Shown: piece after piece, positions 52,931-57,643 of the stretch
Layout of the letters: the number at the start of each line of letters is the position of its first letter
Position numbering within the stretch: the first letter of the stretch is position 1
Assembly: GCA_016235045.1 (NCBI GenBank)
Contig: JACRME010000008.1
Span: forward strand, 248,001-312,000
Length of the DNA stretch: 64,000 nt
Direction of reading: 5' to 3'
Origin: Nitrosomonadales bacterium
GTDB lineage: Bacteria; Pseudomonadota; Gammaproteobacteria; Burkholderiales; Gallionellaceae
Program-made: the position numbers and the translations under genes
Notes under the pieces: model-generated
Database searches by the model: none
Told to the model about the DNA's origin: nothing
What the model saw: only the letters and a program-made list of their open reading frames with translations

Positions 52931-53114
52931 TTCAGTGAGGTAAACCCCCGGCTATACCGGGGGGTTCACCCATGTTTGACCTTTGCGGTGGTCATTAAAG
53001 AACGATCGGGCTATGCCGCATTGTTCCCTCCCCCATGCAGGGGGATAACCAGCGACTTGGCTGGCGTCGTTTGCCAGCCTAGTCGAATGGCTAGTAGTTC
53101 CATCAGGGGTAGGG

Positions 53115-53160
53115 TGGGGGTAGAAACCATGTGCGGATATGTTCGTAATTTCTACCCCCA
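53115..53160. repeat. 12-bp perfect inverted repeat
   Basis: TGGGGGTAGAAA (53115-53126) and TTTCTACCCCCA (53149-53160) flank 22 bases, in the gap between the VOC gene and the SRPBCC relic. It may be a hairpin or a scar of a lost insertion. Confidence 0.7.
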
Positions 53161-53818: not shown

Positions 53819-53899
53819 ACCGTGGGTACCGGAGTGAATTGTTTCTGGATATGTAAGAGAACGACTCCGGTACCTTTTGGTGCCGTACCTTTTGGTGCC
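53819..53899. repeat. GGTACCGGAGT palindromic element, copy A
   Basis: GGTACCGGAGT (53825-53835) and ACTCCGGTACC (53864-53874) are perfect inverted ends. The inner sequence GAATTGTTTCTGGATATG and AAGAGAACG is shared with the other copies. Its right end GTACCTTTTGGTGCC is tandemly duplicated exactly (53870-53884 and 53885-53899). The element sits directly upstream of the DUF1016 relic. The 120 bases before it hold a short open frame with no recognisable product. Confidence 0.85.
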
Positions 53900-54038
53900 C
53901 AAGTACATGCATGCCTTTGCCGAGGCGAGGACGGATGCGGAATTTATGCAGCAGGCTGCTGCACAATTGCCGTGGTTCCACCTTTGCACCCTGCTGGACA
54001 AGCTGCCTGGCCCCGAAACCCGCCGCTGGTATGTGTGA
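53898..54038 (+). pseudogene. Relic of a DUF1016 (YhcG-type) nuclease
   Basis: The frame through ATG 53907 reads FAEARTDAEFMQQAAAQLPWFHLCTLLDKLPGPETRRWYV before a TGA. The QQxAAQLPWxHxxxLLDKLxxxxTRxWY pattern is typical of the N-terminal domain of DUF1016 PDDEXK-type proteins (RmuC/YhcG-like). The expected beginning and the whole nuclease domain are missing, and element copy A lies at the 5' break. Confidence 0.6.
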
Positions 54039-54125
54039 TTGATGAACAGGTAAACCAGTCAGAACCAAAGTTGATTTGCGCGATGGGACTGGCATAATCA
54101 GGCGAAAACCATAAGGAGATAAACC

Positions 54126-54371
54126 ATGAACATGGACTTCAAACCCTACATTACCCGCGCCCCCTCGATCTGCGGCGGCGAACCTGTCATCACCGGCACA
54201 CGGATAACAGTGCGCACCATCCTTGCCAGTCTGGCAGAAGGGATGAGCACTGAAGAGCTCTTGCTGGATTTTCCGACGCTCAGCCGTGATGCCGTGCGCG
54301 CCGTGGTTGCCTTTGCGGCAGTATCGGCAGAAGAAGACCTGCCGTTGCCGGCAACCCCTGTTCTGGCATGA
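54126..54371 (+). CDS. DUF433 antitoxin-like protein
   Basis: An 81-residue protein, YITRAPSICGGEPVITGTRITVRTILASLAEGMSTEELLLDFPTLSRDAVRAVVAFAA, the standard DUF433 (VapB-like/HTH) pattern. AAGGAG precedes the ATG. It overlaps the following PIN-like gene (ATGA), forming a toxin-antitoxin-like operon. Confidence 0.93.
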   Translation: MNMDFKPYITRAPSICGGEPVITGTRITVRTILASLAEGMSTEELLLDFPTLSRDAVRAVVAFAAVSAEEDLPLPATPVLA

Positions 54372-54718
54372 AGATCAAGCTCGACGAAAACCTGCCTGCG
54401 AGGTTGGTGCCCATTCTGCAACAACACGGGCACGACGTTGACACCGTGCCCGATGAGAACTTGAGCGGCAGACCGGATGCAGAAATCTGGCAAGCGACGA
54501 GTGCGGAAGGCCGCTTTCTCATCACCCAGGACCTGGATTTTTCCGATACCCGCCAATTCGCGCCCGGCACACACGCCGGTTTGTTGCTGGTGCGCTTGCG
54601 CGAACCGGGTGCGCATGCCCTGCTGGAAGCCATCACCGCCGTTGCCGCTGAAATGGCTGATTGGGCTGGCTGCTTTGTCGTCCTCACCGAAAACAAAATT
54701 CGAATCAAGCGCCCATGA
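54368..54718 (+). CDS. DUF5615 PIN-like toxin-type protein
   Basis: A 116-residue protein: MKIKLDENLPARLVPILQQHGHDVDTVPDENLSGRPDAEIWQATSAEGRFLITQDLDFSD. The acidic residues of the PIN-like core (LDENLP, D in AEIW context, TQDLDFSD) are kept, so it may be an RNase. It is the usual partner of DUF433. Both genes look intact, unlike their neighbours. Confidence 0.93.
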   Translation: MKIKLDENLPARLVPILQQHGHDVDTVPDENLSGRPDAEIWQATSAEGRFLITQDLDFSDTRQFAPGTHAGLLLVRLREPGAHALLEAITAVAAEMADWAGCFVVLTENKIRIKRP

Positions 54719-54783
54719 CGATTGACACCGCGCGTTTCCACAGGCTGCTCAATGAGTTCAAACTGGGGAACAAGAAGTCATGA
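54715..54783 (+). other. 22-codon open frame coupling DUF5615 to the methylase relic
   Basis: ATG 54715 overlaps the DUF5615 stop (ATGA) and its own TGA overlaps the next ATG at 54780. The peptide MTIDTARFHRLLNEFKLGNKK is not recognised. It may be the surviving start of a lost gene or a coupling peptide. Weak evidence. Confidence 0.3.
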
Positions 54784-54923
54784 ACGAACAGGTTGCCTTC
54801 ACCCTGCGCGGTCGCAATCCTGATGTGCTGACCTGCATCGCGAATCTTTCCAACGACGAGGTATTCACCCCGCCGGAGTTCGCCAGCCGGATGCTGGATA
54901 CCCTTGCCGAGGCGTGGGCGGCC
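54780..54923 (+). pseudogene. N-terminal relic of a DNA methylase / restriction enzyme
   Basis: The frame starts MNEQVAFTLRGRNPDVLTCIANLSNDEVFTPPEFASRMLDTLAEAWAAD, which resembles the N-terminus of large N6-adenine methylase-type restriction-modification proteins (NLSNDEVFTPP segment). It runs directly into element copy B, where the similarity stops; the frame stays open by chance to 55121. The remaining several hundred residues are missing. Confidence 0.6.
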
Positions 54924-54997
54924 GACCAAGGGTACCGGAGTACCGACCAAGGGTACCGGAGTGAAATTGTTTCTAGATCTGATAAGAAATCGACTCC
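54922..54997. repeat. GGTACCGGAGT palindromic element, copy B
   Basis: The left end is tandemly duplicated: 54922-54942 and 54943-54963 are 20/21 identical, each with GGTACCGGAGT. The inner part GAAATTGTTTCTAGATCTG and AAGAAATCG follows. The right end is cut after ACTCC (54993-54997), where the DUF4160 relic begins. Confidence 0.85.
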
Positions 54998-55183
54998 TTT
55001 CAGTTCGATGCGGAGCATGAGGCACTGCTTACGCTGGACGGAAAGATATATTCAGGCGGTCTTCCCGCCAGAGCCTTGTCGCTGGTGCGCGAATGGCTGG
55101 CTTTGCACCGGGACGAAATAGAGCAGGATTGGAAGCTGGCGCAGGAACGCAAACCGATTAACCCGATAGCACCCTTGGAGTAA
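54998..55183 (+). pseudogene. C-terminal relic of a DUF4160 protein
   Basis: The open frame from 54998 encodes FQFDAEHEALLTLDGKIYSGGLPARALSLVREWLALHRDEIEQDWKLAQERKPINPIAPLE, the typical second half of DUF4160. The first half with the EPPHxH motif is absent, replaced by element copy B. It ends 4 bases before the DUF2442 gene, the usual partner order. Confidence 0.75.
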
Positions 55184-55187
55184 TGCC

Positions 55188-55445
55188 ATGATCTTACACA
55201 CTACCGAAGTTACACCCTTGCCGGGATACCGGCTTGCCGTTCGCTTCAACAATGGAGAAAACGGCATCGTTGACCTTACCGCTGAGTTGACTGGCGACAT
55301 GTTTGCGCCGCTGCGCGACCCGGAACTTTTCGCCACGGCCTATCAGCACCCGGTGATGCGCACCGTAGCCTGGGCTAATGGCGCCGATCTTGCACCGGAG
55401 TTTTTGTTCGATCTGCTGGATGGTCGGCAACAACAAGCGGCGTAA
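55188..55445 (+). CDS. DUF2442 protein
   Basis: An 85-residue protein: VTPLPGYRLAVRFNNGENGIVDLTAELTGDMFAPLRDPELFATAYQHPVMRTVAWANGADLAPEFLFDLL, a clear DUF2442 domain. It is intact although its DUF4160 partner is cut. It is only distantly similar to the DUF2442 protein at 43382. Confidence 0.88.
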   Translation: MILHTTEVTPLPGYRLAVRFNNGENGIVDLTAELTGDMFAPLRDPELFATAYQHPVMRTVAWANGADLAPEFLFDLLDGRQQQAA

Positions 55446-55604
55446 GGTTGCAAGTTGCGGCAGGATGGGTAGCCTGAAATCGGTTTGACGGTTTTAGAAG
55501 CGGCCACTAAATATCCGGCCAACAACACCCCCCACGCATCCCGTAAGATTTGCGCACCATGGGGGGTTACTTTTTTCAGGGGCCTGTTGATTAGCTAAAC
55601 CAAT

Positions 55605-55668
55605 ACCAAAGGTTCGGAGTGAAATTGTTTCTGGATCTGAAAAGAAATCAACTCCGGTACCTTTCGGT
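55605..55668. repeat. GGTACCGGAGT palindromic element, copy C (most complete)
   Basis: The ends ACCAAAGGTTCGGAGT (55605-55620) and ACTCCGGTACCTTTCGGT (55651-55668) are imperfect inverted repeats. The inner part GAAATTGTTTCTGGATCTG and AAAGAAATCA joins them. The 64-bp unit appears complete. A half-related inverted pair GACTCCG/CGGAGTC lies at 55731-55766. The rest of the gap from 55446 to 55871 holds no recognised gene. Confidence 0.9.
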
Positions 55669-55871
55669 TGTAATGAGGGGGAAGCCGCCGTTCGTATTGG
55701 TGTTGCTAGTGCAGATGGGATAAATATATCGACTCCGTACATTTTATTCGTTGATTGATCGGAGTCTGATTCTGCGGTTTGGCTTTGCTACTGTTGGCGT
55801 CGGCTTTGGGATATCCTTGCGATATGGGTGCTGTCGACCGATTGCTGCAGTACAACACCAGCCTAGCCATA

Positions 55872-57572
55872 ATGACCACAAATAAACAAACCACTTCGAC
55901 TACCCGCAGCGACGCGATACGCGACTGGTTGCGGCGCAATCGCATCTTTAGTCGTTTTTGGTGGAGGTGCCACGCCCGATTTCCAAGACTAGTTCCCTCA
56001 TTGCATTCTCGCCGCCTGTCAAGCTATATGGAGCGAGACATAGGCGATAACGAGAAAACCTCTATTCCTTTAGAAGAGGAGATGCGCGTTCTTTGCATCT
56101 GGTGCACCGAAGTGTATGGCCCGTCTGAAATCGACGCTCTATACACCGGATTGGAGAAGCTTGATTGGCACTTGGATCGTTTTCATGGGCCCCAATCGGG
56201 GTGCATTGATTGGATCAAGCGGCAGCGGCAGTTTGGCTCAGAGGGAACCTTTAATCTCGGAATCATTTCGCGTCGTGATGAAACCCGATACTTGGCGATG
56301 AACTATTTCGCTGACTTGCCAAACGGGGTCGATTATCTAATCGCCGAAGTTCATCAACTTTGCCCCTCTCTCACATGTGTCCAGATTGCGTTTGTCCTGG
56401 ACGAGGCGCATCAGAAGCTTTACACCGAAGAGTTGCAAATCGAGCGCTCCACAACTCATGAACCCATAAGGGATCGCTTTGGTTCCTATCGAATAATGGA
56501 TCCATATCATCACAAACAGCGTGCAATTGAGTCTCGCCGATGTGAACTTCAAACGTTGTCAGTGCAGTGGTTTCGAAAGAATTTGCCTGGCTTGTTCTGC
56601 AGCACACCGTTGGACGGATATCCCCCAACAGCTGAATTGATTACAACCCAACGCGCATCCATCCTAGAAGACTCGAGGCATGGGGGCGATTCGATGAAGT
56701 CATGGCCCCGTCTGATGGCAAACAGCTTCATTCATAATGCCTGGCGCAGCACAGAGTATTCAAGTCTATTGTTTGCACCTCAAGACTCTGACTCTGAAGA
56801 CAAGTCGCACATCCTAATTTCCCTGCGTACTTCAGATCTACCCGTTGCGGCAGTAGAGCCCTTTGGCGGGTACCAGCCTTCGGCTTATACATCGCTCATA
56901 CATGAGCGAGTAAATGGCATACTCATCTCCTTTGCAGCCATTTCTTTACTGAATGCATTTAGGCGTGTCCTTATACAGACGCGCGATCAGTTGAAAGTGG
57001 CTTCGCCACGAAAAAGGCGCGTCTTGAAGTCGCTGGACTACATACAGAACTTTTTCAGCGCTTCACTTCAGGTTCCAAGTATCGTAGGAGAGCTCGCAGA
57101 GAAGGCTCGCAACGAACACTCCTACCGATGGAGCTGTGAAGGCTTCATTGAGGCTGTTGCATTCCGAGGTGAGCCACCTGCGAAGTTTGATGAGCGCATT
57201 CGCGCTCATACAAAGCATCTAGCTACCCGTCTACTGAACGATGATAAAACGACTAGGGAGAGCTTCAAGCAGATCTCTGAGGTCGTGACGGCTCGTGAAA
57301 GCGTCAAGGCACAAAGGCGAATGGAGATACTTACTGTCGTCGCCATTGCCGTTGCCGCACTCTCGCTCTGGATAGCTTTGCCTCCCGTCGATAAGTGGCG
57401 CGGTGGGCTTCGCGACCTTACCAACACGATTGCAGGTGAGCCTCTCGCAACTGATTCTGTACCAGTGCCGCCTGTGGCACCTTTGATTCATAAGAAGGCG
57501 ACGCCCCCAAAGACGCCTAAGCCGTCGTTGCAGGAGGGGCTGCGCGTCAAAATACAAAAGGTACCGGAGTGA
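55872..57572 (+). CDS. Large unknown protein with C-terminal membrane helix
   Basis: A 566-residue protein if ATG 55872 is used; ATG 55824 is also possible and neither has a ribosome site. Nothing in it matches a family I know. It is mostly soluble, with one membrane helix near the C-terminus (ILTVVAIAVAALSLWIAL) and a Pro/Lys-rich tail (PPVAPLIHKKATPPKTPKPS). The coding sequence is visibly AT-richer than the rest of the window and uses codons such as ATA and TTG more often. It is flanked by element copies C and D, and its last residues (KVPE) and stop come from copy D. Probably acquired; a defence role is possible but not shown. Confidence 0.75.
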   Translation: MTTNKQTTSTTRSDAIRDWLRRNRIFSRFWWRCHARFPRLVPSLHSRRLSSYMERDIGDNEKTSIPLEEEMRVLCIWCTEVYGPSEIDALYTGLEKLDWHLDRFHGPQSGCIDWIKRQRQFGSEGTFNLGIISRRDETRYLAMNYFADLPNGVDYLIAEVHQLCPSLTCVQIAFVLDEAHQKLYTEELQIERSTTHEPIRDRFGSYRIMDPYHHKQRAIESRRCELQTLSVQWFRKNLPGLFCSTPLDGYPPTAELITTQRASILEDSRHGGDSMKSWPRLMANSFIHNAWRSTEYSSLLFAPQDSDSEDKSHILISLRTSDLPVAAVEPFGGYQPSAYTSLIHERVNGILISFAAISLLNAFRRVLIQTRDQLKVASPRKRRVLKSLDYIQNFFSASLQVPSIVGELAEKARNEHSYRWSCEGFIEAVAFRGEPPAKFDERIRAHTKHLATRLLNDDKTTRESFKQISEVVTARESVKAQRRMEILTVVAIAVAALSLWIALPPVDKWRGGLRDLTNTIAGEPLATDSVPVPPVAPLIHKKATPPKTPKPSLQEGLRVKIQKVPE

Positions 57573-57612
57573 AATTGTTTTAAGGAGCCAAAAGTACCGG
57601 AGACGATTTCTT
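57555..57612. repeat. GGTACCGGAGT palindromic element, copy D (rearranged)
   Basis: The left end CAAAAGGTACCGGAGT with GAAATTGTTT (57555-57580) is followed after 7 bases by CCAAAAGTACCGGAG and CGATTTCTT (57588-57612), which is the reverse complement of the normal right end. The two ends are thus in direct rather than inverted order. The left end provides the stop codon of the large unknown gene. Confidence 0.8.
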
Positions 57613-57643
57613 CCTGCAATTCGCAGGAAGGCGGCGGCCCGGT

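Follow-up and report, generated by a model that had tools for sequence, protein, structure and literature searches.

The stretch of DNA considered here (hereafter the window) comprises 64,000 nucleotides from a Nitrosomonadales bacterium, probably an iron bacterium, of the family Gallionellaceae (assembly GCA_016235045.1) and corresponds to positions 248001-312000 of contig C32 in a genome, G000, of 3.15 Mb in 33 contigs and 95% completeness. Between 53.8 and 57.6 kb it contains a family of palindromic elements of about 64 bp, first noted in a preliminary description made from the sequence alone as four copies (A to D) and one half-copy. Their ends are treated here as terminal inverted repeats (TIRs), and the copies are arranged as follows.

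53819..53899, plus strand: copy A, an inverted TIR dimer; the right TIR (53864-53884) is followed by a duplicated outer half (53885-53899).
54925..54997, plus strand: copy B, with the outer left half present twice (54925-54937 and 54946-54958), full inner parts, and a right end cut at about 54996/54997.
55605..55668, plus strand: copy C, a 64-bp inverted TIR dimer, intergenic.
55728..55752, plus strand: half-copy, a probable degenerate solo right end, score 28.
57554..57580, plus strand: first TIR of copy D, left type, containing the stop codon (57570-57572) of a 597-aa open reading frame (ORF).
57588..57613, plus strand: second TIR of copy D, right type, in direct orientation; the right-end consensus lies on the minus strand, score 40.

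The presence of this cluster is borne out far above chance, both by motif counts and by gapped end scores compared with shuffled sequence. The motif GGTACCGGAGT, at no more than one mismatch, occurs seven times in the window, six of these between 53825 and 57570, against a mean of 0.33 and a maximum of 3 in 100 shuffles, while the 21-mer GGTACCGGAGTGAAATTGTTT is found twice (54952, 57560) where none is expected. When scored with gaps against two end consensuses, the clear ends reach 39-53 and the cut right end of copy B reaches 28, the highest score outside 53.7-57.65 kb being 23. Shuffling the 5-kb region 20 times gave peaks of 16-24, below the score of the half-copy near 55731, which is therefore probably a genuine right end in a degenerate state. 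The irregularities ascribed earlier to individual copies, namely the duplicated right end of A (its outer right end), the duplicated left and cut right end of B and the direct order of the ends in D, are all legible in the sequence. The ends do form a common family, as had been proposed, but they are not identical, the left outer part of copy A being ACCGTGGGTACC and the left end of copy C GGTTCGGAGT. As single strands, copies A (z -4.9) and C (z -3.5) fold into long hairpins more stably than their shuffles, whereas copies B (z -0.5) and D (z +0.7) stay within the shuffle range, because the former is broken and the latter has its ends in direct order.

The preliminary description proposed looking for a transposase gene with the same sequences at its borders, and such a gene, encoding a Y1/HUH tyrosine transposase, is present between inverted copies of these ends in three relatives: genomes G005 and G015, and Candidatus Ferrigenium bremense (L130). 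On contig C34 of G005, the reading frame of a 242-aa transposase begins 24 nt downstream of ACCAAAGGTACCGGAGTCGAATTGTTTTT, and ACCAAAGGTACCGGAGTCGATTTCTTTTT, the inverted counterpart of that sequence, follows 18 nt past the last sense codon. The arrangement is repeated in G015 (contig C27, with one mismatch at the 3' end) and in L130, in both of which the two gene ends are of the right type, while at a further locus, L131, the motif is present on the 3' side alone and G007 retains a 3' fragment of the transposase gene that carries it. The left half of the window dimer (GAAATTGTTT) resembles the 5' end in G005, and its right half resembles the 3' end. The relatives' enzyme, of about 243 aa with NHVH and YIELNP motifs, matches Pfam Y1_Tnp at E 2.7e-12, and in structure searches its predicted model has the Y1/HUH fold and resembles 4er8. 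Four C-terminal parts gave no Pfam helix-turn-helix (HTH) match at E 10; helices are predicted to residue 213. Structure searches with the whole model, in which the C-terminal part was not folded or searched separately, gave no convincing C-terminal match. Because the same ends surround a transposase gene in relatives, the 64-bp elements are read, with a probability of about 0.77, as dimers of the TIRs of a TIRYT-type element with a Y1/HUH tyrosine transposase, and therefore as its miniature, non-autonomous derivatives.

Further copies were found both in the full genome and in relatives, so that the claimed restriction to this stretch holds for the window and fails for the genome, which has up to seven further sites. 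A two-mismatch pattern of one end, which misses copy A, matches ten sites in G000 (three in the window, one elsewhere on C32, the rest on C7, C12, C29 and C30) and has matches in 27 of 61 genomes, with none for its reversed control. Isolated two-mismatch matches in G000 may nevertheless be due to chance, since 24 genomes of other families yielded four. The exact motif ACTCCGGTACCTTTNG is confined to ten of the 61 genomes, G000 included, all within the genus of the window (reversed control, 0), and in a wider sample of 399 genomes of the order a match with no more than one mismatch occurs in seven, three of them from that genus. Inverted dimers stand at differing sites in G028 (two), G005, G027, G015, G025 and G009, with a degenerate one in G001. 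Most additional copies in G000 are single, diverged ends, while two sites on C30 resemble further dimers by eye. Viral contigs contained no exact 21-mer, and a distant-mode search of a plasmid collection yielded only four weak matches, to Riemerella and over 41% of the query, which are taken as chance. In several genomes a variant end, TGTACCGGAGTCGAATTGTTTT, is followed by a GGTGGGCAACTTGTTGCCCACC-type hairpin (L325, L335, L336 and L343, in G017, G023 and G025). Serial repeats lie near the dimer at G028:C1:1562945 (L289) and perhaps near those at G000:C30:57761 and 64617 (L285, L286); kilobases apart and mostly on one strand, they look like a possible integron cassette array.

In the window, several damaged genes adjoin the copies.

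53898..54036, plus strand: probable DUF1016 remnant, which begins at the right-hand border of copy A (DUF1016_N, E 1.2e-7, profile positions 70-113 of 137).
54780..54923, plus strand: the initial 48 codons of a gene for an Eco57I-type DNA methylase, which stops short at copy B.
54998..55183, plus strand: DUF4160 fragment without a start, abutting copy B at its cut right end (E 4.3e-9, profile positions 24-65 of 65).
55779-57572: the 597-aa ORF, terminating within copy D; its G+C is about 0.51 and that of the window 0.59.

The DUF1016_N match, at 32.4 bits, falls slightly below the cut-off of 32.8. The 48-aa methylase piece has no significant family match of its own in profile searches; among the best four candidates per genome, its DNA matches to G020 (two places), G030 and G024 end at 54923 or 54920. 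Three of the four homologous frames (G020, G030, G024) reach 551-626 aa and are Eco57I methylases at E 2.8e-36 or better, the second G020 copy having 162 aa. The 597-aa ORF, whose stop codon is contributed by copy D, has no match in Pfam, NCBIfam or PADLOC. Between the copies, at 54126-55445, lie neighbouring DUF433 and DUF5615 (PIN-like) genes and a DUF2442 gene, a group which we take to recall a toxin-antitoxin cluster. Outside the cluster, at 53024-53130, is a repeat with core TAACCAGCGACTTGGCTGGCG...GCCTAGTCGAATGGCTAGTAGTTCC, matched, among the best four candidates per genome, in 35 of 36 relatives of the same genus or family and with at least three matches on contig C20 of G000; it has no Rfam match.

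The diversity of the ends was followed in 119 distinct transposase ORFs from the loci examined, each of at least 150 aa and matching the G005 protein at E 1e-15, near-duplicates being dropped, and in a tree of 73 rows, namely those with at least 215 residues among the first 75 of the 119. A GGG[TA]CA[GC] motif is present in the examined flanks of 89 of the 119 ORFs. Ends of the form GGTACCGGAG accompany only four, which fall in one clade with support 100/99, and this end core, in place of the usual GGGG[TA]CAG, looks new. The TIR core of the window family, GGTACCGG, likewise lacks the GGGGWSAS motif. The two types align without gaps, AAAGG-GGTCAGCT-TCGAAT (L132) standing against AAAGG-TACCGGAG-TCGAAT, and the nearest tree neighbour, L114 in G016, placed with support of only 85/74, has an intermediate sequence (GGGGACGGAG; AAATGGGGACGGAGCCCAATTGTTTTT). 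A near-perfect TIR dimer in G043 (C1:3663571, L322), a genome of another family, joins an identical inner half, GAGTCGAATTGTTTT, to the GGGTCA-type outer half TTAATTAGGGTCA, which suggests that the two halves of an end are able to change independently.

In both copy A and copy B an outer half-end is repeated in tandem, and the same irregularity recurs around the transposase genes of distant relatives. Among 238 gene ends, the landmark is recognisable in 150, and 35 of these have a tandem partial copy no more than 60 nt outward. In 12 of the 35, identity stops right after GGGGTCA-like, GGGGACA or GGTACCG, the commonest position; the next commonest is at -4 (7/35), which is also the lower limit, the anchor being unable to detect earlier stops. 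The hosts of the 12 include G005, Shewanella, Colwellia, a metagenome-assembled genome of the Methylococcaceae and Ca. Electrothrix. In the window, the duplicate of copy B can be read as ending at the same base, with four further matching bases, and the right end of copy B is cut there; the duplicate in copy A, judged by eye, lacks one base. The description of the element as breakage-prone is thus supported, as duplications of the outer end recur in distant relatives at a preferred position. The recurrent border itself looks new, and a nick by the transposase at the shared breakpoint, GGGGTCA^G or GGTACCG^G, would account for it, with about even odds when taken on its own.

A serious rival keeps the element as described and attributes the tandem half-ends and deletions to replication slippage at palindromes rather than to a nick. 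It has weight because many ends are quasi-palindromes centred beside the breakpoint base: a self-complementary stem of at least 5 bp is present in 47 of 119 full-context ends, 35 of these 47 are centred beside that same base, and some junctions show microhomology. However, GGTACC-type ends lack such a centred palindrome and still stop at 0 (G005), +2 (G015) and -1 (L131), and the inner border recurs while unit lengths vary. Slippage is therefore possible but not the explanation we would choose. Much the same reserve attaches to the broadest form of the nick proposal, which we put forward tentatively: that TIRYTs of many Pseudomonadota and at least one Thermodesulfobacteriota lineage may nick at a fixed base (GGGGWCA^G; GGTACCG^G in the clade) close to the middle of an end that is often quasi-palindromic, and that this may drive a ratchet of outer-half duplications, nested 5'-truncated transposase copies and deletions of adjacent genes.

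For the TIR dimers, the following course can be envisaged. A transposase, none having been found in G000, would have recognised the TIR pair on a single strand and, in the manner suggested for REPINs, have moved or copied the unit in trans. Nicking would occur at GGTACCG^GAG (GGGGWCA^G in relatives), and run-off replication or faulty repair at the nick could give rise to tandem copies of the outer half and to deletions starting there; on this view the window would retain only stranded relics. Possible intermediates are seen in G015, where head-to-tail 5' fragments of the transposase gene, of about 269, 165 and 108 nt, lie on C27 (the 108-nt one runs into 32 nt of the element's 3' end, which makes a 140-nt internal-deletion derivative with both TIRs), and in G005, where a 5' fragment of about 210 nt directly precedes an intact copy. 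Additional shortening of such derivatives would yield the 64-bp dimer.

Several points weigh against this account. No movement was observed, copy number is low, and no transposase gene with these ends was found in G000, where a search for Y1 transposases gave seven matches, none near the two-mismatch motif sites; the seed matches L091 and L092, at 97-101 bits, have GGGGTCAGGTCT ends. As the assembly is 95% complete, absence of the gene is likely rather than certain. No empty site with both flanks was found; the flanks of copies A and B do not belong together, and for two relatives' dimers, with up to eight candidates per genome scored, no uninterrupted allele with both flanks was listed. In the flank searches several matches end at or near the element edge and others earlier. 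For want of an element-free allele with both flanks, insertion is supported from one side only, at copy B. Furthermore, 23 of the 35 tandem copies end elsewhere than at the commonest position, and some of the loci depend on one another. For the cut right end of copy B, no clear parallel emerged from an inner-half search ignoring the upstream sequence: in the 30 loci read, of 35 matches, nearly all inner halves had a GGTACCG-like outer half and one had GGGTCA. Inner halves without outer halves were thus not found as a class among these loci, which argues against a general one-sided loss.

One of the remaining explanations is that the elements are canonical GTAG-type repetitive extragenic palindromes (REPs) in REPINs, moved by a REP-associated tyrosine transposase (RAYT) of the E. 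coli or Pseudomonas kind. The inverted doublet of copies A and C makes a hairpin, and the transposase is a RAYT relative by its fold and by NCBIfam NF047646 (71-75 bits, below the cut-off of 80). A self-standing hairpin with a GTAG/GTGG foot is not seen, however; the listed GGTACCG ends, taken singly, pair with themselves over 3-5 bp only, sites in G000 number about ten and not hundreds, and the NHVH/YIELNP motifs and length fit subclass 2.1 rather than 2.2 or 2.5. On these grounds it is rejected as quite improbable. A miniature inverted-repeat transposable element of an ordinary DDE insertion sequence would also have short inverted ends and a small non-coding core. Still less probable, it is rejected because the ends enclose a Y1 transposase gene and the flanks of complete dimers, as read, show no target duplication, although DDE genes with these ends were not specifically searched for. 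A similarly small chance is given to a regulatory palindrome, terminator or integron attC-like site that is not mobile, which would suit the hairpins of A and C and the serial repeats near one relative's dimer and perhaps two in G000. Against it, broken genes contain or adjoin the copies, transposase genes stand between the ends, and 50-60 kb of the window has no Rfam match at E 0.1. An attC origin of the cluster keeps a small probability: none of the seven listed G000 serial-repeat matches is on C32 (best 8 of 33 candidates), and a loose attC pattern gave scattered matches in three of seven loci.

Among known systems the transposase resembles TIRYT/TIRtron enzymes and TnpAY1 subclass 2.1 more than those of GTAG-REP/RAYT type. 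In TIRtrons (Di Nocera et al., 2013; PMC3733652) a tyrosine transposase gene lies between TIRs instead of GTAG REPs, and further TIRs are scattered in dimers and clusters. The relatives share this plan, with an HUH and catalytic-tyrosine gene between inverted TIRs and TIRs dispersed as dimers. The core differs, GGTACCG^GAG here against GGGGWSAS, a motif noted there for some TIRs and hence not defining; the parts consulted make no mention of a recurrent duplication border and name S. lithotrophicus just as a CGTC-positive species encoding tyrosine transposases. Subclass 2.1 is matched in NHVH, WE and YIELNP motifs, a length near 238 aa and absence of a GTAG REP; its C-terminal HTH has no Pfam match here, where the C-terminal part of the model is helical (Quentin et al., 2018; PMC6006769). 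That study reports no REP-like sequence near subclass 2.1 genes and calls for more analysis. REPINs likewise have two inverted ends forming a hairpin, and mobilisation in trans has been proposed for them (Bertels and Rainey, 2011; PMC3116915). The present elements differ in having no GTAG tag, no G000 gene found with these ends and few copies, ten two-mismatch sites in G000 against a usual REPIN number above 100 per genome. IS200/IS605 members (ISDra2, IS608), which transpose by way of single-stranded circles, share the Y1/HUH fold, yet have subterminal secondary structures in place of weakly self-pairing inverted repeats (PMC6006769 for the subterminal structures). No literature naming both repetitive extragenic palindromes and Gallionella was found.

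The preliminary description is accordingly supported in part. The distant RAYT-type transposase it suggested is a tyrosine transposase related to RAYTs, with its gene in relatives, but of the TIRYT branch and not of the GTAG-REP one. Activity is not borne out, given that G000 yielded no gene flanked by these ends and most extra copies there are single, diverged ends. The family is undescribed as a sequence, as far as searched, whereas elements of this kind have been on record since 2013 (PMC3733652); it is a new sequence family of a known kind, stranded in G000 as far as the 95% assembly shows.

An enzyme resembling subclass 2.1 is now linked with a miniature element that is dispersed and has an end to match. 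Furthermore, a precise candidate cut site is proposed, the recurrent breakpoint being the part most worth following. If the fixed-base nick were true, a change in the outer half would alter the partner specificity of enzyme and miniature element. With methylase, DUF1016 and DUF4160 remnants at the edges of its elements, the window may show what is left over after loss of the transposase.

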